This document shows positions 960 through 52,155 of a DNA stretch of 64,000 bases, one piece after another. Under the pieces are notes generated by a model that did no database searches, had not been told where the DNA came from, and saw only the letters and a list, made by a program, of their open reading frames with translations. The DNA is from Gemmatimonadota bacterium (GTDB taxonomy: Bacteria > Gemmatimonadota > Gemmatimonadetes > Gemmatimonadales > Gemmatimonadaceae). The position numbers were made by a program, and so were the translations under genes. How positions within the stretch are numbered: the first letter of the stretch is position 1; every line of letters begins with the position of its first letter. Where the stretch lies: the NCBI GenBank assembly GCA_031127095.1, contig JARIEX010000001.1:1-64000 (forward strand). Direction: 5' to 3'.

Positions 960-2012
960 TCACGTCCCGGGTGAAGTGAGAAAGGGCGATGTCTCGTGGA
1001 GCGTCGTGTCGACACGCAACGTGCGCGTGTCGGCGTCCAGCGTGGCCATGGCGCCGAAGGGCAGCGTCCACTGGTCGGAAATATGACCCACCGGAATGCC
1101 GAGCAGCGTGGGCACCTGCAACGCGTCCGCCAGTTCGGTCACGAGCGCGGTGATGCTGCGCGTGCCATCGTCGCTGGTATCCGTGCAATCGGTGCAGGCG
1201 CCGAACGCGATGCCCACGCACCCGTGGAACGACCCGGCGAGGCGCAGCTGGGTGAGCATACGGTCGATCCGGTAGGTGGCCTCGTTGATGTCTTCGAGCA
1301 CGAGAATCGCGCCGTTGAAATCAACGGCCCACGGCGTGCCGCACAGCGAGGCCACCAGTGCCAGATTCCCGCCGGCCAACCGGCCGTGAGCCACGCCACC
1401 GCGGATCACCTGTGCCTCCGGGGCGATGCCGCCGCTGTCCGCCTGCTGCTGCACCGCACGCACGAGCGAGTCGCGCGAGAAGTCCGACAGCGGCGACCGC
1501 GCCGTGGGGCCGTGATAGCTCACCAGCCCGGCGTGTTGCCAAGCGGCGTGCAACGCCGTGATGTCCGAATAGCCGAGCAAGACTTTGGGGTGCTGCTGCA
1601 GGAACGGCGCGCCGAGCCGCGGCAGCAGTCGCGCCGCGCCGTAGCCGCCGCGCAGACACCAGATGCCGTCGATGGCATCATCGGCAATCGCGGCGAGAAG
1701 GTCGTCGCCGCGCTGCACGTCGTCGCCGGCAAAGTACCCCGTGCGTTGCATCGCGTGTCGCCCGACCTGCACCTCCCAACCCAGCGACTCGGCGGTCGCC
1801 ACCGCGCGCTCGAGCTCGTGCGGCCCGTGCAGCGGTCCCGACGGCGAGATCATGGCCACCCGCGACCCCGGCGGCAGCGGGGGCGGCAGGATCAACGCCG
1901 TGCGCAACGCCGTGCGCAACGACGGGTGATCGGCCGCGCGATCGGACCCGGGCCGGACATCACGCCCGGTATCGCGTTCCGGCAAATCAGGAGTGCCCGC
2001 CGCTGCAGCCAT
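960..2012 (-). CDS. LD-carboxypeptidase (S66 family, muramoyltetrapeptide carboxypeptidase-like)
   Basis: PPPLPPGSRVAMISPSGPL...GIWCLRGGYGAARLLPRL...LLGYSDITALHAA...LAGGNLALVASLCGTPWAVDFNGAILVLEDINEATYRIDRMLTQL. N-terminal start uncertain. Confidence 0.88.
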   Translation of the reverse strand: MAAAAGTPDLPERDTGRDVRPGSDRAADHPSLRTALRTALILPPPLPPGSRVAMISPSGPLHGPHELERAVATAESLGWEVQVGRHAMQRTGYFAGDDVQRGDDLLAAIADDAIDGIWCLRGGYGAARLLPRLGAPFLQQHPKVLLGYSDITALHAAWQHAGLVSYHGPTARSPLSDFSRDSLVRAVQQQADSGGIAPEAQVIRGGVAHGRLAGGNLALVASLCGTPWAVDFNGAILVLEDINEATYRIDRMLTQLRLAGSFHGCVGIAFGACTDCTDTSDDGTRSITALVTELADALQVPTLLGIPVGHISDQWTLPFGAMATLDADTRTLRVDTTLHETSPFLTSPGT

Positions 2013-2123
2013 CCCGCAACGTATCGGCCCTGCCACGGGCGAGCAACGGAATGCGCCGGCCGGCCGGTACGTCGCCCGTGGCAGTGTCATCAGCGCCGTG
2101 CACCGGCCACCTTGCAGCACATC

Positions 2124-3311
2124 ATGCTCTCCCCATCGATTCCCCTGATCGCGGCGATCGCGACCGCACCATGGGTGGCGGCGCCGCTGGTGCTGGCGCG
2201 TCGCCTGCGCACCACGCCCAGCCTCGACGACCTCGATGAGGCCGCGCTGACCTCGGGCAGCCAGCCTCGCGTGAGTATCGTGTTGCCGGCCCGCAACGAG
2301 GCCGTGCACATCGCGGCGTGCGTGCGCAGCATCCGGGCCAGCACGTGGCCGGATCTCGAGCTCATCGTGGTGGACGACCACTCCACCGACGGCACCGGTG
2401 CGTTGGCCCGTGACGCTGCCCAGGGCGACGCCCGCGTGCGGGTGATCGACGCCCCGGATCTGCCACCGGGGTGGTTTGGTAAGCAGTGGGCCTGCCAATC
2501 CGGTGCGGCGCATGCCACCGGATCGTTGCTGTTGTTCACCGACGCGGACACGCGGCACGCGCCCGATCTCGTGACGCGCATGGTGCGCATGCGCGAGCAG
2601 CGCGGCGCCGAGTTGCTGTCGGTGGCGGGCCATCAGGCCATGGGGACGATCTGGGAGCGTGCGGTGCAGCCGTCGGTGTTCACGCTGATTCTCACGCGCT
2701 ACGGCGGGGCCGACGCCATGGAACGTGCCACGAATCCGCGCGATGTCGTCGCCAACGGCCAGTGCTTCATGCTCTCGCGCACGGTCTACGACGCCCTCGG
2801 CGGCCACGAGCCCATCCGCGGCTACGTCGTCGAGGACGTCATGATGGCGCAGGCCGTCAACCGGTCGGGCGGGCGGGTGTCGCTGGCCCTCGGGATCGGA
2901 CAGCTCAGCACGCGCATGTACGACGGGCTGTCCAGCCTCAGGAAGGGGTGGGGCAAGAACATGTACGCCGGTGGACGCCACGCGATGTGGTGGGGTGCCC
3001 TGGGGCAGCGCCTGTACCCGCTGTTCCTGCTCGCCTTTCCGGTGGGCGTGCTCGCACCGTTCGTGGCGCTGGCGATCAGTGGGTGGAACGCCGCCACCGG
3101 TGGCGCCCCGTCGGGGTGGCTGCTCTGGAGCGCCGTCACGAGCCTCGCCGTCCTCGCGTCGTTCGCCGCGGCCAACCGGCTCAACCGGGACCCGGCATAT
3201 CGCGCGCTGCTCGCCCCGCTGGGCGGCGCGATCGTCCTGCTGATTTGTGTGCAGGCGATCGCGCGCGGCAACCGCGTGCAATGGAAAGACCGCGGCTACG
3301 TGTCACAGTAG
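2124..3311 (+). CDS. Family 2 glycosyltransferase, membrane-associated
   Basis: VSIVLPARNEAVHIAACVRSIRAS...LELIVVDDHSTDGTGALAR...LLLFTDADTRHAPDLV plus C-terminal TM segments. Confidence 0.88.
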   Translation: MLSPSIPLIAAIATAPWVAAPLVLARRLRTTPSLDDLDEAALTSGSQPRVSIVLPARNEAVHIAACVRSIRASTWPDLELIVVDDHSTDGTGALARDAAQGDARVRVIDAPDLPPGWFGKQWACQSGAAHATGSLLLFTDADTRHAPDLVTRMVRMREQRGAELLSVAGHQAMGTIWERAVQPSVFTLILTRYGGADAMERATNPRDVVANGQCFMLSRTVYDALGGHEPIRGYVVEDVMMAQAVNRSGGRVSLALGIGQLSTRMYDGLSSLRKGWGKNMYAGGRHAMWWGALGQRLYPLFLLAFPVGVLAPFVALAISGWNAATGGAPSGWLLWSAVTSLAVLASFAAANRLNRDPAYRALLAPLGGAIVLLICVQAIARGNRVQWKDRGYVSQ

Positions 3312-3336: not shown

Positions 3337-4182
3337 TTACTGCGTGAGCCGCGTGGCGCGCGCGAGATAGGCGGCCCGCAGCCGCATCGTCACCGGTCCC
3401 GGGGCGCCGTCGGCGATGGTGTGATCGTCGATGCGCGTCACCGGCAGCACGAAACTCGTCGCGCTGCTCATCAGGCATTCGTCCGCGGCCAGCGCCTGCG
3501 TTACCGTGAACGCCCGCTCGCGTACCGGCACGCCGGCCTCGTGCGCGATCTCCAGCACCACGTCACGCGTAATGCCGGCCAGGATGTCGCTCGACGTCGG
3601 GCGCGTGCACAGCGTCCCGTCGCGTACGATCCACACGTTGCTCGAACCGCCTTCGGTCACGAGTCCGTCCTCGTGCATCATCGCCTCGAACGCGCCCGCC
3701 GCGCGCGCGGACTGCTTGGCCAGCACCTGCGCGAGCATGCTGGTGCTCTTGATGTCGCACCGCTGCCAGCGCAGATCCGGCACCGTGAGCAGACGGACAC
3801 CGGCGGCGTTCGGGTCGGCGAGCAGCAGCTTCGGGCGGGCGTACGCGAACATCGTGGGGACCACCTGCGCGGGGAACGGGAAATCCCGCTCCGCGACGCC
3901 GCGGGTGACCTGCAGGTACACGAGCCCCTCGTGCACACCGTTCTGCGTGGCCAGCTGCTGCATCACGTCCAGCCACACGGCAGTCGGCTGCGTGTCCGGG
4001 ATACCGATCGCGGCCAGCGACCGCGACAGTCGTACCAAGTGACGGTCGGCGTCCAGCAACCGGCCGTTCACCACCGCCGCGACTTCGTACACACCGTCGC
4101 CGAACAGGAGGCCGCGATCGAAGATGGACACGTGGGCGTCCTGTTCGGCGACGAAGGATCCGTTGAGCCAGCAGACGGGCAT
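3337..4182 (-). CDS. Class IV aminotransferase (D-amino-acid / branched-chain type)
   Basis: MPVCWLNGSFVAEQDAHVSIFDRGLLFGDGVYEVAAVVNGRLL...KSTSMLAQVLAKQSA...VTEGGSSNVWIV. Confidence 0.9.
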   Translation of the reverse strand: MPVCWLNGSFVAEQDAHVSIFDRGLLFGDGVYEVAAVVNGRLLDADRHLVRLSRSLAAIGIPDTQPTAVWLDVMQQLATQNGVHEGLVYLQVTRGVAERDFPFPAQVVPTMFAYARPKLLLADPNAAGVRLLTVPDLRWQRCDIKSTSMLAQVLAKQSARAAGAFEAMMHEDGLVTEGGSSNVWIVRDGTLCTRPTSSDILAGITRDVVLEIAHEAGVPVRERAFTVTQALAADECLMSSATSFVLPVTRIDDHTIADGAPGPVTMRLRAAYLARATRLTQ

Positions 4183-4219
4183 GGGAAGTCGGGCGGTGAG
4201 GGAAAAAGAACGGTCGGAT

Positions 4220-5410
4220 TCAGAGCATCGTGCGGCACACACCGGCCACGGCACCGGCCAGCAGCACCCACCCGCTGCCGAGTTGCGTGAACAGGAGCAC
4301 CACGGCCGACAGGGCCAAGATAGCCAGCGCCACGGGATCGGGGGTAATCGTACGCGCCATCAGCAGCACGACCGACGTCATCAGCGCCAGCGAGACCGCA
4401 TTCACGCCGTCGAGGGCGGACGACCAGCGATGCGAGCTCCGCAGGCGTGCCACGAAGGGTGCCGTGAGCGCGACCGCCACGAACGCCGGCAGAAAGATCC
4501 CGACCGTCGCCGCTAGCGCGCCCGCCGGTCCGCCCACGAGATAGCCCACGAACGTGGCCGCTGAGAACACCGGCCCCGGGGTGATCTGTCCCACGGCGAT
4601 GGCGTCGAGCAGCTGCGCATCGGTGAGCACGCCCTGCCGCACCACGAACTCGCCGCGCAGAAACGACAGCAGCACGTAGCCGCTGCCGAAGAGCACGCTG
4701 CCGATTTTGGCGAAGGCGAGCAGGATCGACCACGGCGCCATGGCGGTCGCCATGGCGGCGGCCGCCGTCGTCGTCGCCGCGACCGGCAGCGGGGAGGCGG
4801 CGGCGCCGAGGAGGAGGCCGGCCACCGGGCGCGCTGAGAGATGGGCGTCGTCATCAGCAGCCTCCGTCCACGCGCCCGCGCGCACCACCGAGATTATCAG
4901 GGCCACCGCAAGCACCGCGAGCTCCGACACGCCGCCCAGCACCGCCGCCAGACTCGCGACCGCCAGCGCGGCCGCCCAGCGCGTGCGCACGAGGCTCGCG
5001 CGCAGACGCCAGAGCGCCTGCACCACCACGGCCACCACCACCGGCTGCATTCCCGCCAGCATGGCCGCGGCACGCACCCGCCACACCGCGCTCTCGTGCG
5101 CCATGGTGTACGCGGCCGCGAGCCCCCACACCAGCAGGACCGCCGGCAGGATGAAGCTCACCCCGGCCGCGAACAGCCCGGACCATCCGGCCCGACGGTA
5201 GCCCAGATGAATCGCGAGCTCGGTGGAGTTGGGGCCGGGGATCAGGTTGGCCGCGCCCACGAGATCGGCGAACGCGTCGGCCGTCACCCACCGCCGCCGC
5301 CGCACGCATTCGTCCTCCATGGCCGCGATGTGCGCCGCCGGCCCACCAAAGGCCGTCAGCCCCAGTCGACCGAACACGCGCGCCACCTCGACCCACGCCG
5401 CTGTTGCCAT
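4220..5410 (-). CDS. chrA: Chromate transporter, long-chain (CHR family)
   Basis: VFGRLGLTAFGGPAAHIAAMEDE...GAANLIPGPNSTELAIHLGYRRAGW... duplicated CHR domain (FAKIGSVLFGSGYVLLSFLRGEFV...ITPGPVFSAATFVGYLVGG). Confidence 0.9.
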   Translation of the reverse strand: MATAAWVEVARVFGRLGLTAFGGPAAHIAAMEDECVRRRRWVTADAFADLVGAANLIPGPNSTELAIHLGYRRAGWSGLFAAGVSFILPAVLLVWGLAAAYTMAHESAVWRVRAAAMLAGMQPVVVAVVVQALWRLRASLVRTRWAAALAVASLAAVLGGVSELAVLAVALIISVVRAGAWTEAADDDAHLSARPVAGLLLGAAASPLPVAATTTAAAAMATAMAPWSILLAFAKIGSVLFGSGYVLLSFLRGEFVVRQGVLTDAQLLDAIAVGQITPGPVFSAATFVGYLVGGPAGALAATVGIFLPAFVAVALTAPFVARLRSSHRWSSALDGVNAVSLALMTSVVLLMARTITPDPVALAILALSAVVLLFTQLGSGWVLLAGAVAGVCRTML

Positions 5411-5462
5411 CCCGCAGCGTACGCACCCGCCCCGCGCTCCGAAAGCACCACCGGCGTACTTC

Positions 5463-5500
5463 GGGTGACACACGGCCATCGGGTCACCCCTACGATGGCC
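5463..5500. promoter_or_regulatory. Two interlocked inverted repeats upstream of the methyltransferase gene
   Basis: GGGTGAC (5463-5469)/GTCACCC (5483-5489) and GGCCATCG (5474-5481)/CGATGGCC (5493-5500), order A-B-A'-B', ending 2 nt before the GTG at 5503. Confidence 0.5.
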
Positions 5501-5502
5501 CC

Positions 5503-8500
5503 GTGCTCACACTCCGCGCCGCCGCCCAACTGCTCGCGCAGGCCGACTCCCGGTCCGCGCTACGCCCCATCGCCCACGCCATGGGCTTCACCGCGCCCGC
5601 CATCCGGATCGCGACCCACGACCGCAGTCCGCTGCGCCTGGACGCACTCGTGACCAGCGCCGACCTGCGGCACGGCCCGGACACCCTGCGCCTGCTCTGC
5701 GCCGAACTCGCCCCACCCACCGATCTCGCCGCCGCCGCCGACCCGCGCGAACTCACCCGACGGCTCGCCCTCACGCTCCTGCAGCAAGCCCCCGCGCGCC
5801 ACTGGTGCCTGGTCACGCTCGATGCCCGCCAGCGCACGCTCTGCATCGCCACGGTCCAGCCCCACGCCAACGGACCGCGCATCGCCGCCCTCCGCATCGA
5901 CCGCGCGCGCGTGGTCGACTCCGACGCCGACACGCTCCGCACGCTCGCGGCCGTGACGGAGCCGTCGGCCCTGCTGCGCCACGCCCGCTTCACCGACATC
6001 CTGCGACGGGACGCGCTGTCCAACCGGTTCTACGGCGTGCTCGAACGCGCCGTCAGCACACTCGCCACCGACGCCACGGGCACCGCCTCACCGGCAGAAC
6101 GCCGCGAACTGGCGCTGCTCTGCACCTCACGTTGCCTCTTCCTGGCGTTCCTGGAAGCGAAGGGCTGGCTCGACCATCGCCTCGACTTTCTCATGCACCA
6201 CACCACCGCCCAGCTCGAACGCGGTGGGCACCTCCACCAGCGCCTGCTGCGCCCGCTCTTCTTCGGCACGCTCAACACGCCGCGCCGCGACCGCGCACCC
6301 GCCGCCCGCGCCTTCGGAGCGGTGCCGTTTCTCAACGGCGGTCTCTTCTCGCCCACTCCCCTCGAACGCCGGCACCGCACGCTCCGCTTCTCCGATGACG
6401 CCGTCACGCACCTCATCGGCGCCGTGCTCGATCGCCATCGCTTCACCGCGCACGAGGATTCGGCCGCCTGGTCGGAAGCCGCGGTCGATCCGGAAATGCT
6501 CGGCCGCGCCTTCGAATCACTCATGGCCACCGACGAACGCCGCCGCTCAGGCGCGTTCTACACGCCGCCCGCACTGGTCGATCACGTGGTGCGCGATGCC
6601 CTGCACACCGCCCTCCCCGGTCTCCCCGCCGATGCCCTCGACGATACCCGCGTCGCACCACACGACGACGCACCGCTCGCTATCCCCGCCGCCACACTGC
6701 ATGCCCTCAATCACCTGCGCATCCTCGATCCGGCATGTGGGTCCGGCGCCTTCCTCGTGCACACGCTGGAACGCCTCGCCGCCCTGCACCAACGCGTCGA
6801 TCCCACGGTCGCCACACACCACATCCGCCGCCGCCTGCTCACCCACGGCATCTTCGGCGTCGATCGCAATCCGGTCGCGGTCTGGCTCTGCGAATTACGT
6901 CTCTGGCTGTCGGTGGTCATCGAATGCCCGGAAACGGATGTCACGCGCGTGCCGCCACTGCCCAACCTGGATCATCACATCCGCGTCGGTGACTCGCTCG
7001 CCGGTGGCTCCTTCCGCTTCGCGCCCCCCAGCGCCCGCACCCTGACCACGCTGCGCGAGCGCTACACCCGCGCCGCCGGCCCCCGCAAACACGCCATCGC
7101 CTCCGCCCTGCAACGCGAGGAACGACGGCGCGCCATCGCCGAAGTCACCCGACGACACGACGCGATCCGCACGGAACGCGCCGCCCTCCTCGGCACACTC
7201 CGCGCACGCGATCTGTTCGGACAGCGCCGCCCCCCCAACCGACACGACCGGCAACGCCTCGCCCTCCTCCGCCAGCACGGCCGCGATCTCTCCGCCGCCC
7301 GCGCACGGCTCGCCGACGGCGGCGCCCTCCCGTTCCGATTCGTCACCTACTTCGCCGACGTCGCCGCCGCCGGAGGATTCGACGTCATCGTGGGCAATCC
7401 GCCGTGGGTGCGCCCGCACGCCCTCACCCACGACGACCGCGAACGCCTGCGCCGCGAGTTCCGCAGCATGCGCGCCGCCACCTGGCACGCCGGCGCCGCC
7501 CGCGCCGGCGCCGGCGTGGGCTTCGCCTCACAACCGGATCTGGCGGTCGCATTCATCGAACGCAGCCTGGAATTGCTCGCCCCGCACGGCACCCTCGCCC
7601 TGCTGGTCCCGGCCAAGCTCTGGCGCACGCTCTCCGGCGGCGGCATCCGACGCACGATCTCACAACACGCCGACATCCGCACGATCCGCGATTGGAGTGA
7701 TGCCCCGGCCCTGTTCGACGCGGCCACCTATCCGTCACTGCTCGTCGCCAGCAAACACCCGCCGCACAACGAGCCCCCCATGTCACCCACCGACATCGCG
7801 GTCTCGGTCGCCCGCGGCGCCCACGACCGCCCATTCCAACTGCCAACGGCACGACTCGCCCTGGGCGGCGACCCGGCCGCCCCCTGGATCCTCCTCCCCC
7901 CCGACGCCCACTCGGCCTTCGAACGGCTCCGCACGTCCGGACCCCCACTCGGCGACTCCCCCCTCGGCCGCCCCCTCCTCGGCATCAAATGCGGCTGCAA
8001 CGCCGCCTTCCTCGTCCACGCCCACGAACACGACGACGACGGCGCCACCGTCCGCAGCGCCGACCCCACCGCCGCCCGCACCGCCGTCATCGAACGACAA
8101 CTCCTCCGGCCCGCCCTGCGCGGGGAATGCCTCTCCGCACGCCACGACGGTACGCCCCGCCCCTCCGGCGACGCACTGCGCCTGATCTGGACCCACGGCC
8201 CCGACGGCATGCCCCTGCGCACCCTCCCGCCCGCCACGGCACGCTGGCTCGCCCACTGGCGCCCACGACTCGAAAGCCGCCGCGATGCCCGCCCCCGACA
8301 ACCCTGGTGGACGCTCTTTCGCACCGAGGCCGCCCGCAGCGATGCCCCCCGCGTGGTCTGGGCCGACATCGGCAAACGCCTGCGCACACGCGTACTCGAC
8401 GCCGATGACCCCACCGTGCCACTCAATACGTGCTACGTGGTCCGCACCCCCACCCTCGACGACGCCCACGCACTCAACGCCCTCCTCCACGCCACCATCA

Positions 8501-8760
8501 CCGCCGCCTGGCTCGACGTCCTCGCCGAACCGGCACGCGGCGGCTTCCGACGATTCCTCGGCTGGACGGTCGCCTCACTCCCCATCCCCGCCGAATGGCC
8601 ACGCGCACGCCGCATCCTCGCACCCCTGGGGCGCCAGATCGCCACGACACAGGCGCCCGGTGATGACGCCCAGCACGACGCCCTCGACCAGGCCGTCGCC
8701 GACGCCTACGACATCCCCCTCCGCCAACTCCTCCCCCTGCTCCACTGGTATCGCCCATGA
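5503..8760 (+). CDS. Eco57I/PglX-like class I DNA methyltransferase (type IIG/BREX/DISARM-related)
   Basis: FLAFLEAKGWLD...SGAFYTPPALVDHVV...ILDPACGSGAFLVHTLERL...GIFGVDRNPVAVWLCELRLWL...FDVIVGNPPWVRP. SAM and NPPW motifs present. GTG start preferred because the ATG at 5404 would overlap chrA. Confidence 0.88.
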   Translation: MLTLRAAAQLLAQADSRSALRPIAHAMGFTAPAIRIATHDRSPLRLDALVTSADLRHGPDTLRLLCAELAPPTDLAAAADPRELTRRLALTLLQQAPARHWCLVTLDARQRTLCIATVQPHANGPRIAALRIDRARVVDSDADTLRTLAAVTEPSALLRHARFTDILRRDALSNRFYGVLERAVSTLATDATGTASPAERRELALLCTSRCLFLAFLEAKGWLDHRLDFLMHHTTAQLERGGHLHQRLLRPLFFGTLNTPRRDRAPAARAFGAVPFLNGGLFSPTPLERRHRTLRFSDDAVTHLIGAVLDRHRFTAHEDSAAWSEAAVDPEMLGRAFESLMATDERRRSGAFYTPPALVDHVVRDALHTALPGLPADALDDTRVAPHDDAPLAIPAATLHALNHLRILDPACGSGAFLVHTLERLAALHQRVDPTVATHHIRRRLLTHGIFGVDRNPVAVWLCELRLWLSVVIECPETDVTRVPPLPNLDHHIRVGDSLAGGSFRFAPPSARTLTTLRERYTRAAGPRKHAIASALQREERRRAIAEVTRRHDAIRTERAALLGTLRARDLFGQRRPPNRHDRQRLALLRQHGRDLSAARARLADGGALPFRFVTYFADVAAAGGFDVIVGNPPWVRPHALTHDDRERLRREFRSMRAATWHAGAARAGAGVGFASQPDLAVAFIERSLELLAPHGTLALLVPAKLWRTLSGGGIRRTISQHADIRTIRDWSDAPALFDAATYPSLLVASKHPPHNEPPMSPTDIAVSVARGAHDRPFQLPTARLALGGDPAAPWILLPPDAHSAFERLRTSGPPLGDSPLGRPLLGIKCGCNAAFLVHAHEHDDDGATVRSADPTAARTAVIERQLLRPALRGECLSARHDGTPRPSGDALRLIWTHGPDGMPLRTLPPATARWLAHWRPRLESRRDARPRQPWWTLFRTEAARSDAPRVVWADIGKRLRTRVLDADDPTVPLNTCYVVRTPTLDDAHALNALLHATITAAWLDVLAEPARGGFRRFLGWTVASLPIPAEWPRARRILAPLGRQIATTQAPGDDAQHDALDQAVADAYDIPLRQLLPLLHWYRP

Positions 8761-11267
8761 CCTGGATGCTCACCGACCGCCGGCACGTACACGCACAACT
8801 CGCCGACGCCGTGCTGGCCGACCCGCCACCGGCCGCACTGGGCGACATCACCCTGCTCCCCCACCAGCGCGACGCCGTCGCACGCATCCGCACCGCCATC
8901 CGCACACACCACGGCGCACTCCTCGCCGACGACGTCGGACTCGGCAAGACATACACCGCCCTCGCCGTCGCCAGCCGCTATACCCAGGTGCACGTGATCG
9001 CCCCCGCCGCCCTCCAGGCGATGTGGCGCACCGCCATCACACACGCCCAGTTGCCGCACGTCCGACTGCACTCGGTCCACGGGTTCTCGCACGGCGCACC
9101 CGAGCGCACCGACACGCCCCCGCACGTCGTGCGGGAAGCATCCGACGGCAGATCGCCGCCACGCTCCGTCCTCGTGATCATCGACGAGGCCCACTACCTG
9201 CGCACCCGGCGCACCGCACGCTACGCCGCCGTCGCACGGTTCGTGAGCGGCTGCGACACCCTGCTCCTGTCAGCCACGCCACTCCACAATCGGGCCGACG
9301 AGCTGCGCCATCTCCTCGGCCTCTTCCTCGGCGCGCGGGCCGACCTCCTCTCCGACACCCTGCTCGCACAAGTCGTCATCCGGCGCACCACCGCCCACGC
9401 ACTCCCGGGACCGTCATCCACCCCCGCCGTTCAACGACACGGCGCGCACCCGATCCCGCACGACCGCGACACGCTCGCCCACATTCTCGCCATCCCCGCG
9501 CCCCTCCCCGCCCACGATGGCGCCGTCGCCGGTGCACTGATCAGACTGGGGCTGCTGCGCGCCTGGTGCTCCAGCGACGCCGCCCTCGCGCACGCCGTCC
9601 GGCAGCGACGCCTGCGGGGGCACGCCCTGCAACAGGCGCTGCGCGCCGGACGGCATCCCACACAGGCGGAACTGCGCAGCTGGCTCGTCGGCGAGCACGA
9701 CGTCCAGCTCGCGTTCCCCGAACTGATGGCGCAACACCCCGTCGAAGCCGCACCACTCCTCGATCGGCTGGCGGCCCACCTCGATGCCCTCGAGCGGCTC
9801 GCCCAGCATCACGACGCCACCGCCTGTGGCGATGTCGCCCGCGCCGACGCGCTCCGGGACATCATGCGGACACACCCCGATACCCCGATCATCGCATTCT
9901 CACAGTTCACCCGCACCGTGCACGCGCTGCATCGCGCCCTCGCCGACATCGCCGGCGTCGGCGTGCTCTCCAGCCGACACGCCCGCATCGCCAGCGGCCG
10001 TATCAGCCGCAGCGACGCCCTGGCTCGCTTCGCCCCACACGCACAGGAACGCCCGCCGCCGCCCACGCAGCAGTCCATTCGCCTGCTGCTCTCCACCGAT
10101 CTGCTCGCCGAAGGCGTGAACCTGCAGGACGCCGGTGTCGTCGTCCACCTCGACCTGCCGTGGACCGACGCCCTGCGCACGCAGCGCGTCGGACGCTGCG
10201 CCCGCATCGGCTCACCACATGCCGTCGTGCACGTGTACCGCTTCGCACCACCGCCACACGGGGAGCGCGCGCTGCAGCTGCACCGCCGGCTCACCCAAAA
10301 GGCGCGGCTCGCGAAACGCTTCACCGGCGTCACACCAACACACGCGCGCACAGCGCCGTCGGTGCGCACGGCGAGCGCCGCGGCGCAGGCCACACGCCTG
10401 CGCCGCCTGCTCTCCACATGGCGTGATCACGCGGAGCAACAGCCACCGATCACCACGCCCGAGACCACCCACCCGGCCACGCGAGTAGTCACCGCCGTGA
10501 CTACCGCGGTGACTACCGCCGTGGCGACCGCCGTGGCACCGGACCACGCATGGATAGCGCACATCGAACACCACGGTGTGCACCAACTACTCTGCGCCAT
10601 CGCCGGGCAACGGGCGGGAGCACGACGGCGCGTGGGCACCGGCGTTCGCCTGCTCGTCCGCGCCGTCCGGATCGCGCAGCGCGCGGAGCCCGTGGGGGAC
10701 CGCACGCTCGCGGCGGTGGAAACGTCCACCGCGCACGCGGCCGTCGTCACGGCTGCGATCACGGCGGCCGTGCACCGTGCGCGGCGCGATATCCATCGGT
10801 GGGAGCGTCGCAGCCATGTTCGCGAGGCCGCCGGTCCACCGGCCGGCGCGCTGTCTCCCGTGCGGCAGCGCGTGACCCGGCAGATCGAGCAGCTCGTTGG
10901 GCGTGCGACGGCGCTCGAGCGCCGGGCGTGGCAGCCTGCCATTCGTGAGGCCATGCAGGTCGTCGCGCGCGCGCAGGGGACCGGCGCCGACGATGCGCTC
11001 GCGCGCTGGAGCGCTGAGTGGTCCGGGCGGGACCACACGTGGCTCGGGGCGTGGCGGCGCGAGCCGGTGTTGGCGGCGGGCGCGACGAGGGCGGATGCCG
11101 ATGCGGAGACCAAAGTGTGTGGCGGTGCCAGTGCCAGTACGCGTTCCGGTGTGCGCGCCGCGCCGCTCGTCGTGCATGCGCTGTTGCTGGTCGGCCCGGA
11201 GTTCCACGCCGATTACACTTCGGCATGCCACGACACGCCTTGCTCTTCGATCTCGACGGGACCCTGA
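8757..11267 (+). CDS. SNF2-family DEAH-type helicase
   Basis: LPHQRDAVARIRTAIRTHHGALLADDVGLGKTYTALAVA (motif I), VLVIIDEAHYLRT (II), LLLSATPLHNRADEL (III), QRVGRCARIGS (VI). Start ATG overlaps the methyltransferase stop in ATGA. Confidence 0.88.
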   Translation: MTWMLTDRRHVHAQLADAVLADPPPAALGDITLLPHQRDAVARIRTAIRTHHGALLADDVGLGKTYTALAVASRYTQVHVIAPAALQAMWRTAITHAQLPHVRLHSVHGFSHGAPERTDTPPHVVREASDGRSPPRSVLVIIDEAHYLRTRRTARYAAVARFVSGCDTLLLSATPLHNRADELRHLLGLFLGARADLLSDTLLAQVVIRRTTAHALPGPSSTPAVQRHGAHPIPHDRDTLAHILAIPAPLPAHDGAVAGALIRLGLLRAWCSSDAALAHAVRQRRLRGHALQQALRAGRHPTQAELRSWLVGEHDVQLAFPELMAQHPVEAAPLLDRLAAHLDALERLAQHHDATACGDVARADALRDIMRTHPDTPIIAFSQFTRTVHALHRALADIAGVGVLSSRHARIASGRISRSDALARFAPHAQERPPPPTQQSIRLLLSTDLLAEGVNLQDAGVVVHLDLPWTDALRTQRVGRCARIGSPHAVVHVYRFAPPPHGERALQLHRRLTQKARLAKRFTGVTPTHARTAPSVRTASAAAQATRLRRLLSTWRDHAEQQPPITTPETTHPATRVVTAVTTAVTTAVATAVAPDHAWIAHIEHHGVHQLLCAIAGQRAGARRRVGTGVRLLVRAVRIAQRAEPVGDRTLAAVETSTAHAAVVTAAITAAVHRARRDIHRWERRSHVREAAGPPAGALSPVRQRVTRQIEQLVGRATALERRAWQPAIREAMQVVARAQGTGADDALARWSAEWSGRDHTWLGAWRREPVLAAGATRADADAETKVCGGASASTRSGVRAAPLVVHALLLVGPEFHADYTSACHDTPCSSISTGP

Positions 11268-11875
11268 TCGACTCGATCCAGTTGCTCCTCGAGTCCATGC
11301 ACTTCGCCTTTGCGGGGCAGGAGCGCGCCCCCACGACGGAGCAGTGGGTGGCGGGGATCGGGACGCCGTTGCGGACCCAGTTGGCCGAGTGGTGTGACGG
11401 GGCGGAGGCGGTCGAGGCGTTGGCCACGCGCTATCGCGAGTATCAGACCATCCACCTGGCGCGGCTCACCACCGTGTATCCCGGGGTGCCTGAGACCATC
11501 GCCTGGGCACGTGCCGCCGGGCATGCCACGGCACTTGTCACCAGCAAAGGGCGCGGCATGACGGGGCGCTCGCTCGAGCAAGTCGGGCTGGCGTCGTCGT
11601 TCGACGCGATCGTCACCTTCGAGGAGACCGCGCGTCACAAGCCGCTCCCCGACCCCGTGCTGCTGGCGCTCGACCGGCTGGGGCTGCCGGCACGCAGCGC
11701 GCTGTTCGTGGGGGATTCCCCGCACGATATGCATGCCGGGCGGGCGGCCGGTGTGCGCACGGCGGCTGCGCAGTGGGGGCCGTTCAGCCGAGAGGAACTG
11801 GCGGTCGCGGCACCCGATTATTGGATGAACAGTATGACAGAACTGCCGGGCATCGTCGCCACGCTCGCCTCCTGA
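11225..11875 (+). CDS. HAD-superfamily hydrolase (phosphoglycolate phosphatase-like)
   Basis: MPRHALLFDLDGTLIDS...ALVTSKGRGM...KPLPDPVLLAL...ALFVGDSPHDMHAGRAAGVRT. Confidence 0.92.
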   Translation: MPRHALLFDLDGTLIDSIQLLLESMHFAFAGQERAPTTEQWVAGIGTPLRTQLAEWCDGAEAVEALATRYREYQTIHLARLTTVYPGVPETIAWARAAGHATALVTSKGRGMTGRSLEQVGLASSFDAIVTFEETARHKPLPDPVLLALDRLGLPARSALFVGDSPHDMHAGRAAGVRTAAAQWGPFSREELAVAAPDYWMNSMTELPGIVATLAS

Positions 11876-11904
11876 GCCGCCGCGTCAACGAGCGGGAGGC
11901 GCGC

Positions 11905-12330
11905 TTAGCGCGTCGGCATCGGTACGGCCACGACGTCGAGCCCGTCGATGCCGCTGAAGTCATCAGGATTGCACGTGTAGATCGGTAACGCATTCGCGAG
12001 CGCCGTGGCGGCAATCATGGCGTCGTACGAGCGGGCCTGCGTTTTGCGCCCGGCTTGCCGTAATGACACCGCCACGCGTCCGAAGGCCCGCGCGGCGGCG
12101 GCATCGAACGGCAGCGCATCGAAATCTGCTTCCGCCTGCTGCAGGTGCGCCTGTCGCGCCGACCGTTCGTGATCGGATTTGGCGACGAGCGGCCCGACGC
12201 TGAATTCAGCCAACGTGATGGCCGTGATCAGCGGTTCATCCGGTAGCACCGCGGGATCGTCGAGCCGACTGAGCAGGATCACCGTGCTGGTGTCGAGAAT
12301 GCCGCGCTCATGGCGGACCCGGTCGATCAC
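11905..12330 (-). CDS. PIN-domain toxin (VapC-like)
   Basis: ILDTSTVILLSRLDD...LITAITLAEFSVGPLVA...SYDAMIAATALANALPIYTCNPDDF; acidic PIN residues conserved. Confidence 0.9.
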   Translation of the reverse strand: MIDRVRHERGILDTSTVILLSRLDDPAVLPDEPLITAITLAEFSVGPLVAKSDHERSARQAHLQQAEADFDALPFDAAAARAFGRVAVSLRQAGRKTQARSYDAMIAATALANALPIYTCNPDDFSGIDGLDVVAVPMPTR

Positions 12331-12563
12331 AGGGATCCGTCCATCACGTCGTCGAGATCATGGCGCAGCTGCTCTATGTCGACCGACGGAAGTCGGCGCC
12401 ACCGTGTCAGCAGCGCCGCTGCGGTGAGGCCCCGACCGGTGAGCGGACGCAATTCGGCGATCGGACGCCCGTCCATCGTCACGGTGAGTGTTTCTCCGTC
12501 GGCCACGCGCTGCAGCACCCGACCGCCGTTGTTGCGCAGTTCCCGCACGGTGACGTTGTCCAT
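12327..12563 (-). CDS. Phd/YefM-type antitoxin
   Basis: MDNVTVRELRNNGGRVLQRVADGETLTVTMDGRPIAELRPL; ATGA overlap with the downstream PIN gene. Confidence 0.9.
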   Translation of the reverse strand: MDNVTVRELRNNGGRVLQRVADGETLTVTMDGRPIAELRPLTGRGLTAAALLTRWRRLPSVDIEQLRHDLDDVMDGSL

Positions 12564-12575
12564 AACCTGAGTGTA

Positions 12576-12585
12576 TCACCGGTGA
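12576..12585. promoter_or_regulatory. Candidate antitoxin operator TCACCGGTGA
   Basis: Perfect 10-bp palindrome 13 bp upstream of the antitoxin start. Confidence 0.4.
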
Positions 12586-12676
12586 GACAGTCGGGCAAAC
12601 CCAACCCCGCAATCTCGTATTGGCGCCGACCGGTTCGCGTGTGGAAGAACCAAACGCCCGTCATTCGCCACACTCC

Positions 12677-12961
12677 CTACGCCGCCGCCAACTCCTCGAT
12701 CGCGCGGGCGAGTTCGAAATCCTTTTGGGTGATCCCGCCCGCGTCGTGCGTGCTGAGCGAGAAGTGCACCTTGGTGTAGCGGATATCGATGTCAGGGTGA
12801 TGCTGCATCGTTTCGGCGATATCGGCCACCTGCGCGATGAAGGCCACACCCGCCGGAAACGTGGCGAAGTGGTACCCCTTCACGAGCGCGTGGCCCTTAC
12901 GGGACCAGCCCGGCAGGGCGCCGAGGCCTCGCTGGATTTCGATATCGGACAGAGCAGGCAT
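12677..12961 (-). CDS. Pterin-4-alpha-carbinolamine dehydratase
   Basis: LPGWSRKGHALVKGYHFATFPAGVAFIAQVADIAETMQHHPDIDIRYTKVHFSLSTHDAGGITQKDFELA. Confidence 0.93.
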   Translation of the reverse strand: MPALSDIEIQRGLGALPGWSRKGHALVKGYHFATFPAGVAFIAQVADIAETMQHHPDIDIRYTKVHFSLSTHDAGGITQKDFELARAIEELAAA

Positions 12962-13079
12962 GTGTCTCCTAGAGTAGAGTGTGCCTCGTACGGAGACAAT
13001 AGGCGCCGGTTCCGGAACGGTTCCCGCGGGCCCCCTCAGTCGGATTTTCCAGAATCTGATCTTCCCGCCGCCTTTGATT

Positions 13080-13096
13080 TTCGGTATTTATTCGGT
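13080..13096 (+). promoter_or_regulatory. TTCGGT-N5-TTCGGT direct repeat abutting the imuA start
   Basis: ttcggtatttattcggt immediately before ATG 13097; same motif before dnaE2 at 16534. Confidence 0.5.
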
Positions 13097-14272
13097 ATGA
13101 CCGCCTTGCCTGCCACCGCCCTCCTCGATCCCGCTCCCGCGTTGGCGCGGCCGGACCTCACGCCACTCCGCGATCAACTGCAAGCGGTGGTGGCCAGTGG
13201 ACGGCAGGCCAGCGGCCCGTGGAGCACGGGGCTGGCGCGATTGGACCGGGCGCTGGGGGGCGGCATTCCGCGGGGGCGGGTCACCGAGATCAGCGGTCCC
13301 CTGGCCGTCGGCAAAACAGCGTTGCTGCGGCGGTTGGTGGCGCAGGTGCTGCACACCGGCGCGTGGGTGGCATGGATCGACGCCACGCGCACGCTCGCCC
13401 CGGCGCCATGGGCCGCGCTCGGGTCGCGCTTCGTGGTGATCCGGCCGCCCGATACCACACGCAGTGCGTGGACCGCCGATCTGTTGCTGCGCAGCGGGGT
13501 GTTCGCGCTGGTCGTCATCGACGGCGCCCCCCCGTTGTCACGGGTGCATGGCGTGCGCCTGGCGCAGCTGGCGCGGGAGCGCGATGCGGCGTGCGTGGTG
13601 CTCGAGCACCACGAGAGTGGCCGTACCGCGCGTCCCAGCCGGTTGGCCGGCACCGTGCGTCTGCGCGTGGCCGCGATGCCGCCGTGCGCGCCGAGTATGC
13701 CGCCCTCGATGCGCCTGTTACCCAGCCGACGACGACCCACCCCATCCCCAGCAGAACCGGTCGCCGATGCGTCGCGACGGTGTGTGATAACCGTGGAGAA
13801 AGGCGGGCACAGTCAGGGTCGCAGTCAGTCCATCGAGGTGAGCAGTGCAGTCGTCATGGCGCGTCGCGTGTGTACGGATTCCGAGATTCCCGATCGGCGC
13901 GGGGTGGCGCGAAGCGCGCGTCGTCCCTGGACCGCCCGCGGCAACAGCAGCGACGCCGAACAGCCCGGTCAACACACCGAGCACCCCGTCACCTGGGGCG
14001 GACTCGGCGTGTCCGCCAGCGACCTGTACGGAGTTGACCTTCCCGGACACCCAGCTCGCCTTGCCGCTGGGTTTACCGACCGTGGCCTCGCCATCACCAG
14101 CGACCGCCCGTTCCCGCCGCGGGAGCGCAGTGACCGCGAAACCGACCAGCGTACCCGCGACTGGACGCGCGCGCGCGGCCGCCGCCGCGCCGCCGACCCC
14201 GGGTACGGTCGCCGCCCCAAACGCCACGAGCCCACCGCCCACGGCCCACGGCTCACGGCCGAGCGCCCATAG
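13097..14272 (+). CDS. imuA: ImuA-like RecA-fold protein, long overlapping C-terminus
   Basis: STGLARLDRALGGGIPRGRVTEISGPLAVGKTALLRRLVAQVL...ALVVIDGAPPL; upstream of imuB and dnaE2. Final ~140 aa overlap imuB. Confidence 0.78.
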   Translation: MTALPATALLDPAPALARPDLTPLRDQLQAVVASGRQASGPWSTGLARLDRALGGGIPRGRVTEISGPLAVGKTALLRRLVAQVLHTGAWVAWIDATRTLAPAPWAALGSRFVVIRPPDTTRSAWTADLLLRSGVFALVVIDGAPPLSRVHGVRLAQLARERDAACVVLEHHESGRTARPSRLAGTVRLRVAAMPPCAPSMPPSMRLLPSRRRPTPSPAEPVADASRRCVITVEKGGHSQGRSQSIEVSSAVVMARRVCTDSEIPDRRGVARSARRPWTARGNSSDAEQPGQHTEHPVTWGGLGVSASDLYGVDLPGHPARLAAGFTDRGLAITSDRPFPPRERSDRETDQRTRDWTRARGRRRAADPGYGRRPKRHEPTAHGPRLTAERP

Positions 14273-16019
14273 CCCCCAGCCCACAGCCCACTGGGACAAC
14301 GCCCCCCGCGCCCTCCTCATCGACACCAAACTCCGCGCCGTCTCCCTCGCCGCCGGCCGGGCCGGCGTCCGCGCCGGGATGCTCCTCCCCGAAGCCCGCG
14401 CCTGCTGTGCCGATCTCGACGTGCGCCCGTGGGACGATCACGCCATCCGCGACGCCGTGTTGGCGGCCAGCACCGCGCTGCTCGCCGCCAGTCCCCAGGT
14501 CACGCCCGTAGCCGGTGCGCCCGGGATGTGGTGGGTGGGTGCCAACGGCTTCGAGGCTATCGGTGGCGAAGCCCAGCTCGCGCGCACCCTGCTCGCCATC
14601 GCGCAGCAGTGGCACCCCGATGCCCGTGTCGCCATCGCCGATTCATGCGTCGCCGCGCGCGCCGCCACCTGGGCGCCGCGCGCCCGCAGCCGTGCCGTGC
14701 GCGAACGTGATCCACAGGGTGTGCGGGAACGCGATCCACTCACGCTGCCCGACGGCATCACGATCATTCCCGCCGGGCAGTGCGCACAGTATCTCGCACC
14801 GGCGCCATTGGGGTTGGTGCCCATGGACGATGATTTGCGCGACGCGCTGCAGGCGTTGGGACTGCGCACCGTCGGCGGTCTGGCCTCGCTCGAGGCCGGC
14901 GACATCGAAAAGCGCTGGGGCCCCGGCGGCCTCACCGCGTGGCGACTCGCCCACGGCCACGATCCCCGTCGGCCGGGACTCGTGCGCGTGGAAGCCGCGC
15001 GCAGTGCGAGTGTGGAGTTGCCCGCGGCAGTGGAAAGCACCGAGCCCGTGCTGTTCGTGTTGCGCGCGCAGTTGCAGCGCCTACTGCGCGAGTGTGTGGA
15101 AGACGGACGCGCCGCCGCGGCGGTGGCGATCACGCTCGTGCTCGACGCCGGCCGGCAGTATCCCATCGACGACATCGGCAGTGAAATGCGCGGGCATGTC
15201 CACGTGCCGGAGACGTCCGACGACACGACAACGAAGGAAGCAGGACGGAGGAAGGAGCCCCCCCCTGCCCCCTCCTCCCTGACACCCTCCTCCCTGCCTC
15301 CTAAGCCGTTGGCAGTTACGGAGCCTTCGGCAGTTTCAAACCTCCTCAGCATCCCCCAACGCTCCATCACCCGCGAAATCCGCCCCGCGCGTCCGCTCGC
15401 GCGGCTCGAGCCGCTGTTCGATCAATGCCGCAGCCTGCTGGACCGGTGGAGCATTCCCGCGCCGATCATCGGCGTCACCGTCAGCATTCCCGCCACCGCG
15501 CCGCTCGCCGCCGATCAAGGCGACCTGCTGATCCCGTCGTGGCGCGACGCCGCCATGAATGCCGACGCCGTGTTCGCGCGCCTGCGCGCCGTGCTCGATC
15601 CCGACAACACCGGCACCGTCGTCGTGCACCCCGAAGCCGGCGACAGTCATCGCCCCGAAGACACCGGTCGCTGGATCAGCGCCGACGCCATGGCCCTCGG
15701 CGCCGCCCCGATCCCCGCACCGATTCCCGCACCATCAACACCCACCTCGCCAACACCCACCGCCGCCGTACTCCGTTTGCTCGACGCACCGGAAACGGTG
15801 GACGTGGAATGCCCACACGGCGTGCCCGACGCCGTGTGGTGGCGTGGCCAACGTCTGTCGATCCTCACCGCCGACGGCCCCGAACGCTTGAGCGGTGACT
15901 GGTGGCGTGCCGATGCCTACGCCCGCGATTACTGGCGCTGTACCGCCGAGCATGACGGGGAGCTGATGCTGTACTGCGAGGATGGGGTGCGGTGGTACGT
16001 GCAGGGGTGGTTTGACTGA
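13845..16019 (+). CDS. imuB: ImuB, Y-family polymerase-like protein
   Basis: GTG start, VQSSWRVACVRIPRFPIG; ALLIDTKLRAVSLAAGRAGVRAGMLLPEARACCADL...ALQALGLRTVGGLASLEAGDIEKRWGPGGLTAWRLAHGHDPRR; C-terminus RLSGDWWRADAYARDYWRCTAEHDGELMLYCEDGVRWYVQGWFD. Confidence 0.88.
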   Translation: MQSSWRVACVRIPRFPIGAGWREARVVPGPPAATAATPNSPVNTPSTPSPGADSACPPATCTELTFPDTQLALPLGLPTVASPSPATARSRRGSAVTAKPTSVPATGRARAAAAAPPTPGTVAAPNATSPPPTAHGSRPSAHSPQPTAHWDNAPRALLIDTKLRAVSLAAGRAGVRAGMLLPEARACCADLDVRPWDDHAIRDAVLAASTALLAASPQVTPVAGAPGMWWVGANGFEAIGGEAQLARTLLAIAQQWHPDARVAIADSCVAARAATWAPRARSRAVRERDPQGVRERDPLTLPDGITIIPAGQCAQYLAPAPLGLVPMDDDLRDALQALGLRTVGGLASLEAGDIEKRWGPGGLTAWRLAHGHDPRRPGLVRVEAARSASVELPAAVESTEPVLFVLRAQLQRLLRECVEDGRAAAAVAITLVLDAGRQYPIDDIGSEMRGHVHVPETSDDTTTKEAGRRKEPPPAPSSLTPSSLPPKPLAVTEPSAVSNLLSIPQRSITREIRPARPLARLEPLFDQCRSLLDRWSIPAPIIGVTVSIPATAPLAADQGDLLIPSWRDAAMNADAVFARLRAVLDPDNTGTVVVHPEAGDSHRPEDTGRWISADAMALGAAPIPAPIPAPSTPTSPTPTAAVLRLLDAPETVDVECPHGVPDAVWWRGQRLSILTADGPERLSGDWWRADAYARDYWRCTAEHDGELMLYCEDGVRWYVQGWFD
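14231..14287. repeat. Heptameric (CCCACGG)n repeat inside imuB
   Basis: cccaccg cccacgg cccacgg ctcacgg ... ; 14241-14274 matches 59899-59932 at 31/34 positions. Confidence 0.7.
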
Positions 16020-16035
16020 CCGGGTGCCACGCCAC

Positions 16036-16398
16036 CTACACGCCGCTGTCGTCGCGCTCCAGCGGCTTCCCCTCATGATCCGAAATCAGCACCCACACCG
16101 TGCGCGTCCGGCGCGAATACAGCAGCCGCACGGTCACGTCACGCGGGTTCTGCTTAAACGCAAAGTGAAAGCGGAAGCTCGTATCGAGCGATTCGCGGAT
16201 CACCCCTTCCTTGAAGCGCCCGTAGAACTCCTGCACCTTCGTGCACGGCGCGATCTCGGTGAAGAACTGCTTGCCGATCGCGTCTTCCTTCTTCAACGAC
16301 GCCAGCTTCGACTCCACGGCGTTGTAGTTCAAAATCCGCCCGGTCGCGTCCAGCTGGATCATGCCGTACGGCAGCTTGTCCAGCTCCTCGGTGGACAT
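16036..16398 (-). CDS. Photoactive yellow protein-like single PAS-domain protein
   Basis: MSTEELDKLPYGMIQLDATGRILNYNAVESKLASLKKEDAIGKQFFTEIAPCTKVQEFYGRFKEGV...VWVLISD aligns end to end with Halorhodospira PYP ([26 protein letters not shown]...[26 protein letters not shown]). Alternative GTG start at 16428. Confidence 0.82.
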   Translation of the reverse strand: MSTEELDKLPYGMIQLDATGRILNYNAVESKLASLKKEDAIGKQFFTEIAPCTKVQEFYGRFKEGVIRESLDTSFRFHFAFKQNPRDVTVRLLYSRRTRTVWVLISDHEGKPLERDDSGV

Positions 16399-16533
16399 CG
16401 TATCGGCCTGCTCGAGCACCTGCTTCACGAGGGGCGCGGAATACAGGAAGGACGGCGGACAATGGGCATGAGAGAAAGATAACGGCGGTCGGCCGACACA
16501 CGGCCCCGCCGGCCCCCCTTCGCCGCCCCTGGC

Positions 16534-16550
16534 TTCGGTGTATATTCGGT
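16534..16550 (+). promoter_or_regulatory. TTCGGT-N5-TTCGGT direct repeat upstream of dnaE2
   Basis: ttcggtgtatattcggt, 5 nt before ATG 16556. Confidence 0.5.
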
Positions 16551-16555
16551 ACCTC

Positions 16556-19500
16556 ATGCCGAACCAGTACGTCGAACTCCATTGCCACTCGGCCCTCTCC
16601 CTACTCGACGGGGCCTCGCTCCCCGAGTCACTGGCCGAGCGGGCCGCCGAGCTGGGGTACCCTGCCCTGGCCATCACCGACCACGATGAAATGGGGGGCG
16701 TGGTCCGCTTTGGCACCGCCTGCGCCACGCTCGGCATCGGGGGCATCCTGGGCGTCGAGCTCACGGTGCGCATGCCCGACATCGGCAACCCGGGCGCCGA
16801 ACGACGCACCCATATGGTGCTCCTCGCCGAAACGCGCGACGGCTACCGCAACATCGCCTCGCTCGTCACGCGGGCCCGCATGGATAGCGAGCGCGGCACC
16901 CCCAGTGTGCCCTGGGCGCTCGTTACCCGGCACGTAGAGGGCGTGACGGCCCTCACCGGCTGCCCGCGCGGCTGGGTGCCGCAACTGCTGGCCGAAGGGC
17001 GCGCCAGCGACGCCTACACCGCCGCCGGTGAATTACGCGACGTATTCGGCGAACATCTCGCGGTGGAATGCTGGGATCATCGACTGCCCGAAGAGCGCGC
17101 GCTGGTGCAGCAGCTGCGCCCGCTCGCCGCCAAGCTCGGTGTGCCGTGGGTGGTCACCAACGATGTGCACTACGCCACCCCCGAACAGCGCATCGTGCAC
17201 GACGTGCTCAACACGCTGCGGCACGAACGCACACTCGACACCATGGGTACGCGGTTGCGTCCAAACGCCGAGTGGGCGCTCAAGAAGCCGTCGCTGATGT
17301 ATCAGCGGTGGCGTGGGGCCGAAGAAGGCGTAAAAGCCACGCTGGCGATTGCCGAACGGTGCACCTTCCGGCTGGAGCAGCTCAAGCCGTCCATGCCGGC
17401 GTTTCCGCTACCGCCCGGCATTAGCGCGCAGGAGTATCTCACACGGTTAGTGGAACAGGGCGCCTACGAGCGGTGGAACACGTCGCGCACCCCGAAGCAC
17501 GACACCCAACTCGCGCACGAACTGGCGATGATCGGCAAGCTCGATCTCGCCGGATTTTTTCTTACCGTGTGGGACATCGTACGTTTCGCGCGACGCGAAG
17601 GGATTCTCTGTCAGGGACGTGGCTCCGCCGCCAATTCGGCCGTGTGCTACTGCCTCGGCATCACGGCGGTCGATCCCATTCGCATGGAGCTGTTGTTCGA
17701 ACGGTTCTTGAGCGAAGGACGCACAGAACCGCCCGACATCGACATCGACTTCGCGCACCGCGATCGCGAGCGCGTGCTGCAGTACGTGTACAATCGCTAC
17801 GGCCGCGAACACGCCGCCATGGTGTGCGAGCAGATCACCTGGCGCGGACGCAGCGCCGTGCGCGATGCGGCGCGCGTGCTCGGCTTCTCGGTGCAGCAGG
17901 GTGACATGCTGGCGTCGCTCAGCGACCGGTTCAGCGCGCGGAGCACGGCGGAGGCGCTGCGGGTCGATACACCGGCACCCGAAGGCGAGGCCACCGTACC
18001 ACCCTCCACACCAAGCGCCACCGACGCCGATCGCTTAGGCCAACAGATGCTCGGCGGCACCGAAGCCACCACCACGGCCCGCGTGGTGCGTGAGGCGTCG
18101 CGCAAAGTCGCGTCCACGCAAACGAAAGCATCAGCGAAGGCATCCGCCACCGCACAACGCGCCCCCAAAGGCCCCACCGATCGCGACGGCACGTGGGCGC
18201 AGGTCATCGATATGCAGGCCGAGCGCAAGATCGCGGCCGATGCCCGCGCAGAGAGTAAGCCGCAGCCGCAAAGCGACGTACTCACCCGCGCCGGTCTCGA
18301 CCCCAACGACGAGCGCGTGCGTCGCTTGGCCGACGTGGTGGCCGGCCTGCACCAACTGCCGCGTCACCGCTCCATTCACGTGGGCGGGTTCATTCTCACC
18401 GAAGAACCACTCGGCTCCATCGTGCCCATCGAGCCCGCCTCCATGCCGGGGCGCACGGTGATTCAGTGGGAGAAGGACGATCTCGATCCCGTCGGCCTGG
18501 TCAAGATCGACCTGCTGGGACTGGGCATGCTCACCGTGGTGCAGGATTGCTTGCTGTATATCCGGCACACGCGTGGCACCACGATCGATCTCGGGCAGCT
18601 CGACATGAGCGATCAGGCCGTGTACGACGTGATGTGCCGCGCCGATACCGTGGGACTCTTCCAGATCGAGAGTCGCGCGCAGATGAACACGCTGCCGCGT
18701 CTCAAGCCGCGGTGCTTTTACGATCTCGTAGTCGAAGTCGCGCTCATCCGCCCCGGCCCCATTCAGGGCGAGATGGTGCATCCGTATCTCCGACGGCGCG
18801 CGGGATTGGAACCGGTCACGTATCCGCACCCCATGCTCGAGAAGGTGCTCAAGCGCACGCTCGGCGTGCCGCTCTTTCAGGAGCAGGGTATGCAGGTGGC
18901 CATCGTGGCCGCCGGCTTCACGCCGGCGCAGGCCGATCAACTGCGTCGTGCCATGGGGCACAAGCGGTCACGCGAACGCATGGCGCAGATCTGCGAAGAG
19001 CTGATTGCAGGCATGGCCAGGAACGGCATCCCCGAAGAAACCGGCCGACGCATTTACAACCAGATCAACGCCTTCGCCGACTACGGCTTTCCCGAAAGTC
19101 ATGCGGCCAGCTTTGCGCTCATCGTGTACGCCACGGCGTGGCTCCGGCACTACTACGCGCCGGAATACACCGCCGCCATTCTCAACGCGCAGCCGATGGG
19201 CTTCTATGCGCCGAGCACGCTCATCGAAGACGCCAAGCGACATGGCGTGGAAGTGCGTCCGGTCGATCTCACCCGCAGCACGTGGGATCACGCCCTCGAG
19301 ATGGCCGACGGACGCGTGCTCGTGCCCAACGATGGCGTGGTGCGCTGGGGTCGTCACATCGGCGCGCAACCCATGCGCGATGTAGTGGCCGTGCGCCTGG
19401 GCGTGCGACTCGTGCGCGGACTGGGCGCCAAGGCCCGTCGCGCGCTCGAAGCGGCGCTGGCGCAGGGCCCGTTCACCAGTGTCGACGACGCCGTGCGTCG

Positions 19501-51914: not shown

Positions 51915-51924
51915 CGGAGGATTG

Positions 51925-52152: not shown

Positions 52153-52155
52153 CCG

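Follow-up and report, generated by a model that had tools for sequence, protein, structure and literature searches.

An adenine DNA methyltransferase gene and an SNF2-type ATPase gene, overlapping in a window of 64,000 nucleotides from a Gemmatimonadota bacterium, form an inherited pair under selection, in which the methyltransferase and ATPase motifs are intact and a nuclease is not recognisable. The pair is vertically inherited and chromosomally fixed in the Gemmatimonas lineage, and it probably consists of a core orphan adenine methyltransferase that was domesticated and has one conserved specificity, together with an SNF2 translocase that lacks a nuclease. The initial annotation had considered a candidate minimal, mobile defence module, which was not supported, as the pair is core and syntenic in relatives and close mobile copies were not found. 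Of its three inferences, the solitary epigenetic module fits best.

The positions of the two genes, the protein domains and the conserved neighbours are listed in Table 1. The two large ORFs overlapping in ATGA were confirmed, and the two proteins are probably made from one transcript; the short spacing between the genes is maintained throughout the family. A longer methyltransferase ORF is available from a TTG at 5404, and relatives begin at the 5503 position. The HAD phosphatase gene that follows begins about 40 bases before the SNF2 ORF ends. No RNA family was found in positions 4000-14000 of the window. The window contig is 71 kb long and belongs to an assembly of 3.5 Mb (83% complete) that shares its genus with genomes filed as Gemmatimonas, and the nearest record to the window methyltransferase is a Gemmatimonadota MAG with 99% methyltransferase identity.

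Table 1. Coordinates of the gene pair, its protein domains and its conserved neighbours (positions in the window; residues are those of the methyltransferase)
Feature	Position	Strand	Description
LD-carboxypeptidase (Peptidase S66)	960..1955	-	conserved syntenic neighbour, outside the module
Family 2 glycosyltransferase	2100..3311	+	conserved syntenic neighbour, upstream
Methyltransferase gene	5503..8760	+	GTG start; 1085 aa; gamma-class (Eco57I/TaqI-C type) adenine DNA methyltransferase
N-terminal alpha/beta domain	aa 1-135 = 5503..5907	+	
Helical spacer	aa 136-400		
Catalytic domain	aa 401-740		coiled insert at about 500-612
Target-recognition domain (TRD)	aa about 826-1030 = 7978..8592	+	conservation nearly equal to catalytic domain
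Stop/start overlap (ATGA)	8757..8760	+	translational coupling of methyltransferase and SNF2
SNF2 gene	8757..11267	+	836 aa; SNF2-type ATPase/translocase without nuclease domain
HAD phosphatase	11225..11875	+	conserved neighbour; upstream or downstream of the pair by genus
Pterin-4a-carbinolamine dehydratase	12677..12961	-	conserved neighbour

The motifs first reported for the two proteins were all present: DPACGSGAF at residues 409-417 and NPPW at residues 632-635 of the methyltransferase, and DVGLGKT, DEAH, SATP and QRVGRCAR in SNF2, the latter near-invariant in 23 aligned sequences. Pfam matches to Eco57I (68.7 bits), SNF2-rel_dom (42.6 bits) and Helicase_C (52.6 bits) supported the description of a coupled Eco57I/PglX-like methyltransferase and SNF2 protein. 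The reported absence of a visible nuclease held by profile, alignment and neighbourhood scan, and no Pfam nuclease family matched either protein.

The AlphaFold model of the methyltransferase was fairly confident (mean pLDDT 85.9), and its nearest solved folds were CamA (top match, E 8e-20), M.BseCI, MmeI and BrxX/PglX. The catalytic motifs were invariant or nearly so across aligned relatives, and m6A chemistry is predicted from the sequence. A sub-threshold Pfam match to the MmeI-type helical spacer was also detected, and the strongest PADLOC matches were type IIG restriction enzymes (132 bits). Residues 1-135 are the least conserved and fastest-evolving part of the protein, and the alignment of relatives revealed no conserved D/E...K catalytic triad in them; for these two reasons, the effector once suspected in the methyltransferase N-terminus is unlikely.

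The SNF2 model was also fairly confident (mean pLDDT 80.0). Its core starts at about residue 31, its nearest solved folds are chromatin remodellers, with ZorD lower in the list, and its profile matches include RapA. Few residues are conserved in the C-terminal third, namely W555, W682 and R722. In another Gemmatimonadota family (f9; L148, L149 and L190-L193), the SNF2 orthologues carry a conserved N-terminal extension of about 190 aa without a Pfam match; its identification as a PLD homologue received no support (hhalign probability 0.6%).

We then assessed the distribution of the pair. The methyltransferase was found in 153 of 179 genomes of the family, 94 of 105 high-quality genomes and 34 of 35 genera, and SNF2 in 148 of 179, 91 of 105 and 33 of 35, respectively, nearly always as one copy per genome. 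The universal gene IspH was itself recovered from only 168 of the 179 genomes, so the pair is near the ceiling set by incomplete assemblies. Across the phylum, a profile search matched the methyltransferase in 215 of 394 sampled genomes, some of them from further families within the order and class, and in four other families SNF2 adjoined it at 11/11 loci. Three genomes appeared to hold SNF2 only (G005, G150 and G170); the SNF2 match lies at a contig start in each, and the methyltransferase was therefore probably cut off. A further genome counted as lacking the methyltransferase (G024) has it at a contig end. Patristic distances followed those of IspH for the methyltransferase (Mantel r 0.74) and SNF2 (r 0.73), with 0 of 2000 permutations as high, and the correlations for the non-Gemmatimonas genera alone (r 0.39 and 0.48) were also above all permutations. 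The two proteins were most tightly correlated with each other (r 0.87). A contig filed under Candidatus Kuenenia stuttgartiensis (L008) equals G071:C62 in length, is Gemmatimonas by content and is probably misbinned.

In the family loci that were read, the methyltransferase is followed closely by SNF2, with one exception (G001), in which the SNF2 match lies about 12 kb further along the same contig. LD-carboxypeptidase, glycosyltransferase 2, HAD phosphatase, carbinolamine dehydratase and imuA recur as neighbours across genera, together with an ECF sigma factor, an anti-sigma factor and DUF4097-like proteins that were named by eye. The pair is a syntenic core pair of its relatives, with losses in some reduced genomes, which is essentially the outcome under which the initial annotation would have abandoned a defence module. 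The window also contains a PIN-domain toxin with a Phd/YefM-like antitoxin between the HAD phosphatase and carbinolamine dehydratase genes (11905-12563, minus strand), an imuA-imuB-dnaE2 mutagenesis cassette (13100-20113, plus strand) and, by eye, a MazE/AbrB-like and Doc/Fic-like toxin-antitoxin pair (51922-52551, plus strand). Many members of the genus also have imuA/imuB downstream of the pair.

Many genomes that lack the pair measure 1.8-2.8 Mb. Where their loci were readable, the flanks were kept and the pair was missing, and in one genome (G136) a methyltransferase remnant remains at the locus. A profile search of the pair-less genomes returned no SNF2 orthologue, the best match scoring 56 bits compared with about 800 for true orthologues. 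The retention of the flanks without the pair in reduced genomes points to secondary loss by deletion and indicates that the pair is ancestral but dispensable, and it is not essential, since some complete reduced genomes live without it. In another genome (G033, locus L194), the methyltransferase is truncated at about 597 aa within the contig and no SNF2 follows; this is likely a decaying copy.

Gemmatirosa kalamazoonensis KBS708 (G072) has the methyltransferase at the syntenic place with an ECF sigma gene directly after it, and a profile search found no SNF2 orthologue. SNF2 has been lost and the methyltransferase kept in this species, and SNF2 therefore looks accessory. In the published methylome of G. 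kalamazoonensis (PMC3974934), the three m6A motifs RGATCY, ATGCAC and CCAGN7TCA are each methylated at more than 99% of sites. For CCAGN7TCA, a restriction, specificity and methylation set of type I fits, and two candidate makers, the core methyltransferase and an MmeI-like enzyme, are available for RGATCY and ATGCAC; among the families searched, no PF01555 or PF02086 methyltransferase was found. Assignment by elimination failed, as the locus of the MmeI-like enzyme, a helicase and a T5orf172 protein leaves RGATCY versus ATGCAC ambiguous, and the genomic signature of either motif gave nothing clear. Either motif is a candidate product of the core methyltransferase, and if it makes one of them, SNF2 is not needed for that. 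The genes of the MmeI-like methyltransferase locus (L165:7935-13952) overlap; its helicase is of the DEAD type and its T5orf172 protein is GIY-YIG-like.

We searched 72,556 plasmids, 50,697 phages and IMG/VR viral contigs and found no close copies of the pair; the methyltransferase matches on plasmid, phage and viral contigs were of partial length with about 25-35% identity. A mobile element was rejected on this ground. Distant plasmid cousins (about 25% identity) from Lactococcus, Nostoc, Calothrix and Microcystis resemble the window pair in parts and gene order, combining an Eco57I-type methyltransferase with an SNF2 helicase that bears an N-terminal PLD (HKD) nuclease. PLDc_2 was detected by Pfam in 6/6 plasmid helicases scanned, whereas the window SNF2 had none. 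The pair thus lacks the nuclease domain of the methyltransferase and PLD-SNF2 restriction-like systems but shares with them the encoding of an Eco57I methyltransferase beside an SNF2 helicase. The same architecture is found in orf33/orf34 of L. lactis FM03P (PMC6098607). In the cyanobacterial cousins, the methyltransferase N-terminal domain could be aligned with window residues 1-135. On Nostoc plasmid pn2 (L182:7605-18442), the system has genes for an EVE-domain protein, a deoxynucleoside kinase and viperin as neighbours.

The plasmid cousins are mobile, carry the PLD nuclease and swap their TRDs, whereas the window pair is fixed, vertically inherited and PLD-free and has kept its TRD. A cyanobacterial plasmid set showed 44% TRD identity beside about 95% catalytic identity. 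The mean ratio of TRD to catalytic identity was 0.45 in this set, a small mobile control of six plasmid sequences, compared with 0.92 (0.72-1.13) in 351 Gemmatimonad pairs, where the methyltransferase N-terminus drifts instead (0.56 of catalytic identity). This contrast is the strongest argument that the Gemmatimonad methyltransferase has one fixed sequence specificity, a property deduced here from sequence comparison. The PLD difference may reflect loss in the Gemmatimonad lineage or gain elsewhere. The two groups make a clear comparative case of one methyltransferase-SNF2 architecture in two regimes, one mobile with a nuclease and swapped TRDs, the other fixed and nuclease-free with a kept TRD.

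Class 1 DISARM pairs an adenine methyltransferase with an SNF2-like helicase (DrmD), and BREX uses PglX-type methyltransferases. The window pair is like DrmMI and DrmD in holding both kinds of protein, and its methyltransferase belongs to the N6-methyltransferase class of PglX. However, drmA, drmB and drmC, which belong to class 1 DISARM, are absent from the locus, and neither pglZ, brxC nor a DUF499 protein was seen near the pair, in agreement with the initial annotation that neither neighbour looks like drmA, drmB, drmC, pglZ or brxC. A PADLOC scan of ten flanking proteins gave no match; these are housekeeping or toxin-antitoxin genes. Matches of the pair to PADLOC and NCBIfam models (type IIG, DrmMI, PglX, DrmD, DpdE and PLD-helicase) were only partial. 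SNF2 scored 83 bits against the NCBIfam DrmD equivalog (cut-off 610) and the methyltransferase 57.7 bits against BREX-2 PglX (cut-off 400). The resemblances to DrmMI, DrmD and PglX therefore stand as partial likeness and fall far under the curated cut-offs where such exist, and both class 1 DISARM and BREX were rejected. Owing to these partial DISARM, BREX and type IIG matches, genes of this kind could be misread as remnants of defence systems. HKD-SNF2 is also borne by the type-2 DUF499-centred BREX-related (BR) helicases (PMC12839542).

MmeI (type IIL) has its helical spacer, methyltransferase and TRD fold in common with the window methyltransferase, but its N-terminal PD-(D/E)XK nuclease motif was not found there. 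A type IIG/IIL restriction-modification enzyme was rejected, with no nuclease profile fused to the methyltransferase and no conserved D/E...K in residues 1-135. The closest solved fold is that of CamA, an orphan m6A methyltransferase from C. difficile that recognises CAAAAA (PMC8187626). Both are gamma-class enzymes of similar fold with lineage-wide conservation and no restriction partner; the window methyltransferase is single-copy and vertically inherited, and no partner restriction endonuclease was found in the pair or its flanks. CamA differs in its length of about 577 aa, without the N-terminal third of the window methyltransferase, in its conservation within one species rather than a family and beyond, and in not being described with an SNF2 partner.

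On these results, the methyltransferase would write one fixed m6A mark, and SNF2 would most likely be an accessory translocase that aids it by clearing DNA-bound proteins or responding to the methylation state. The lineage would have retained a marking enzyme and a motor without a cutting domain, and the mark may serve its own regulation or maintenance, a regulatory function suggested by analogy with CamA in C. difficile. The main rival, which we judge unlikely, is core defence without cutting, in which the methyltransferase marks self and SNF2 strips proteins or blocks replication on unmarked phage DNA. A core location may be compatible with a defence role, SNF2 and the methyltransferase resemble DrmD, DrmMI and PglX, methylation is tied to defence in BREX and DISARM, and one mobile cousin has defence genes next to it, among them those for viperin and an EVE protein. 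Against this, the TRD is fixed, mobility is absent, synteny is conserved, the flanking proteins scanned include no defence genes, and one species has lost SNF2 yet keeps the methyltransferase.

That same loss would suit two proteins with separate jobs, an orphan regulatory methyltransferase and a merely co-transcribed RapA-like SNF2 acting in transcription or repair, as would the RapA match and the mutagenesis genes nearby in many members of the genus. We consider this quite improbable, given that the methyltransferase and SNF2 trees are tightly correlated, the mobile cousins share the pairing, and no convincing SNF2 without a methyltransferase was found, the apparent cases being contig ends. 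Least probable is ordinary restriction-modification with a cryptic nuclease in the methyltransferase N-terminus, the SNF2 C-terminus or elsewhere. The type IIG enzymes that head the PADLOC matches would accord with it, and the modelled N-terminal alpha/beta domain could be a dead endonuclease-like fold; however, neither protein matches a nuclease profile, residues 1-135 lack the conserved catalytic set and evolve fastest, and the nuclease of the cousins is the PLD domain that is absent here. A domesticated orphan methyltransferase with its motor remains our preferred reading. A bolder extension, offered tentatively and with rather low confidence, is that a dedicated SNF2 remodeller serves the methyltransferase by clearing nucleoid proteins or reading the mark, giving a lineage-wide epigenetic system comparable to that of plants and animals, where the SNF2 remodellers DDM1/LSH assist DNA methylation.

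Core orphan methyltransferases and methyltransferase and PLD-SNF2 systems are already known; in the literature searched, we found no report of a nuclease-free methyltransferase-SNF2 pair that is fixed in a whole bacterial family and extends further. To our knowledge, only a few orphan adenine methyltransferases span a lineage (Dam, CcrM and CamA), and we know of no co-inherited SNF2 motor for any of them. Because the pair occupies one fixed chromosomal place and its cutting part is missing, it resembles a long-inherited system for marking DNA more than a mobile weapon against viruses. The cultured species G. aurantiaca, G. phototrophica and G. kalamazoonensis make these predictions testable. 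If true, a lineage-wide orphan methyltransferase with a co-inherited SNF2 motor would extend through the Gemmatimonas family and a large part of its order.
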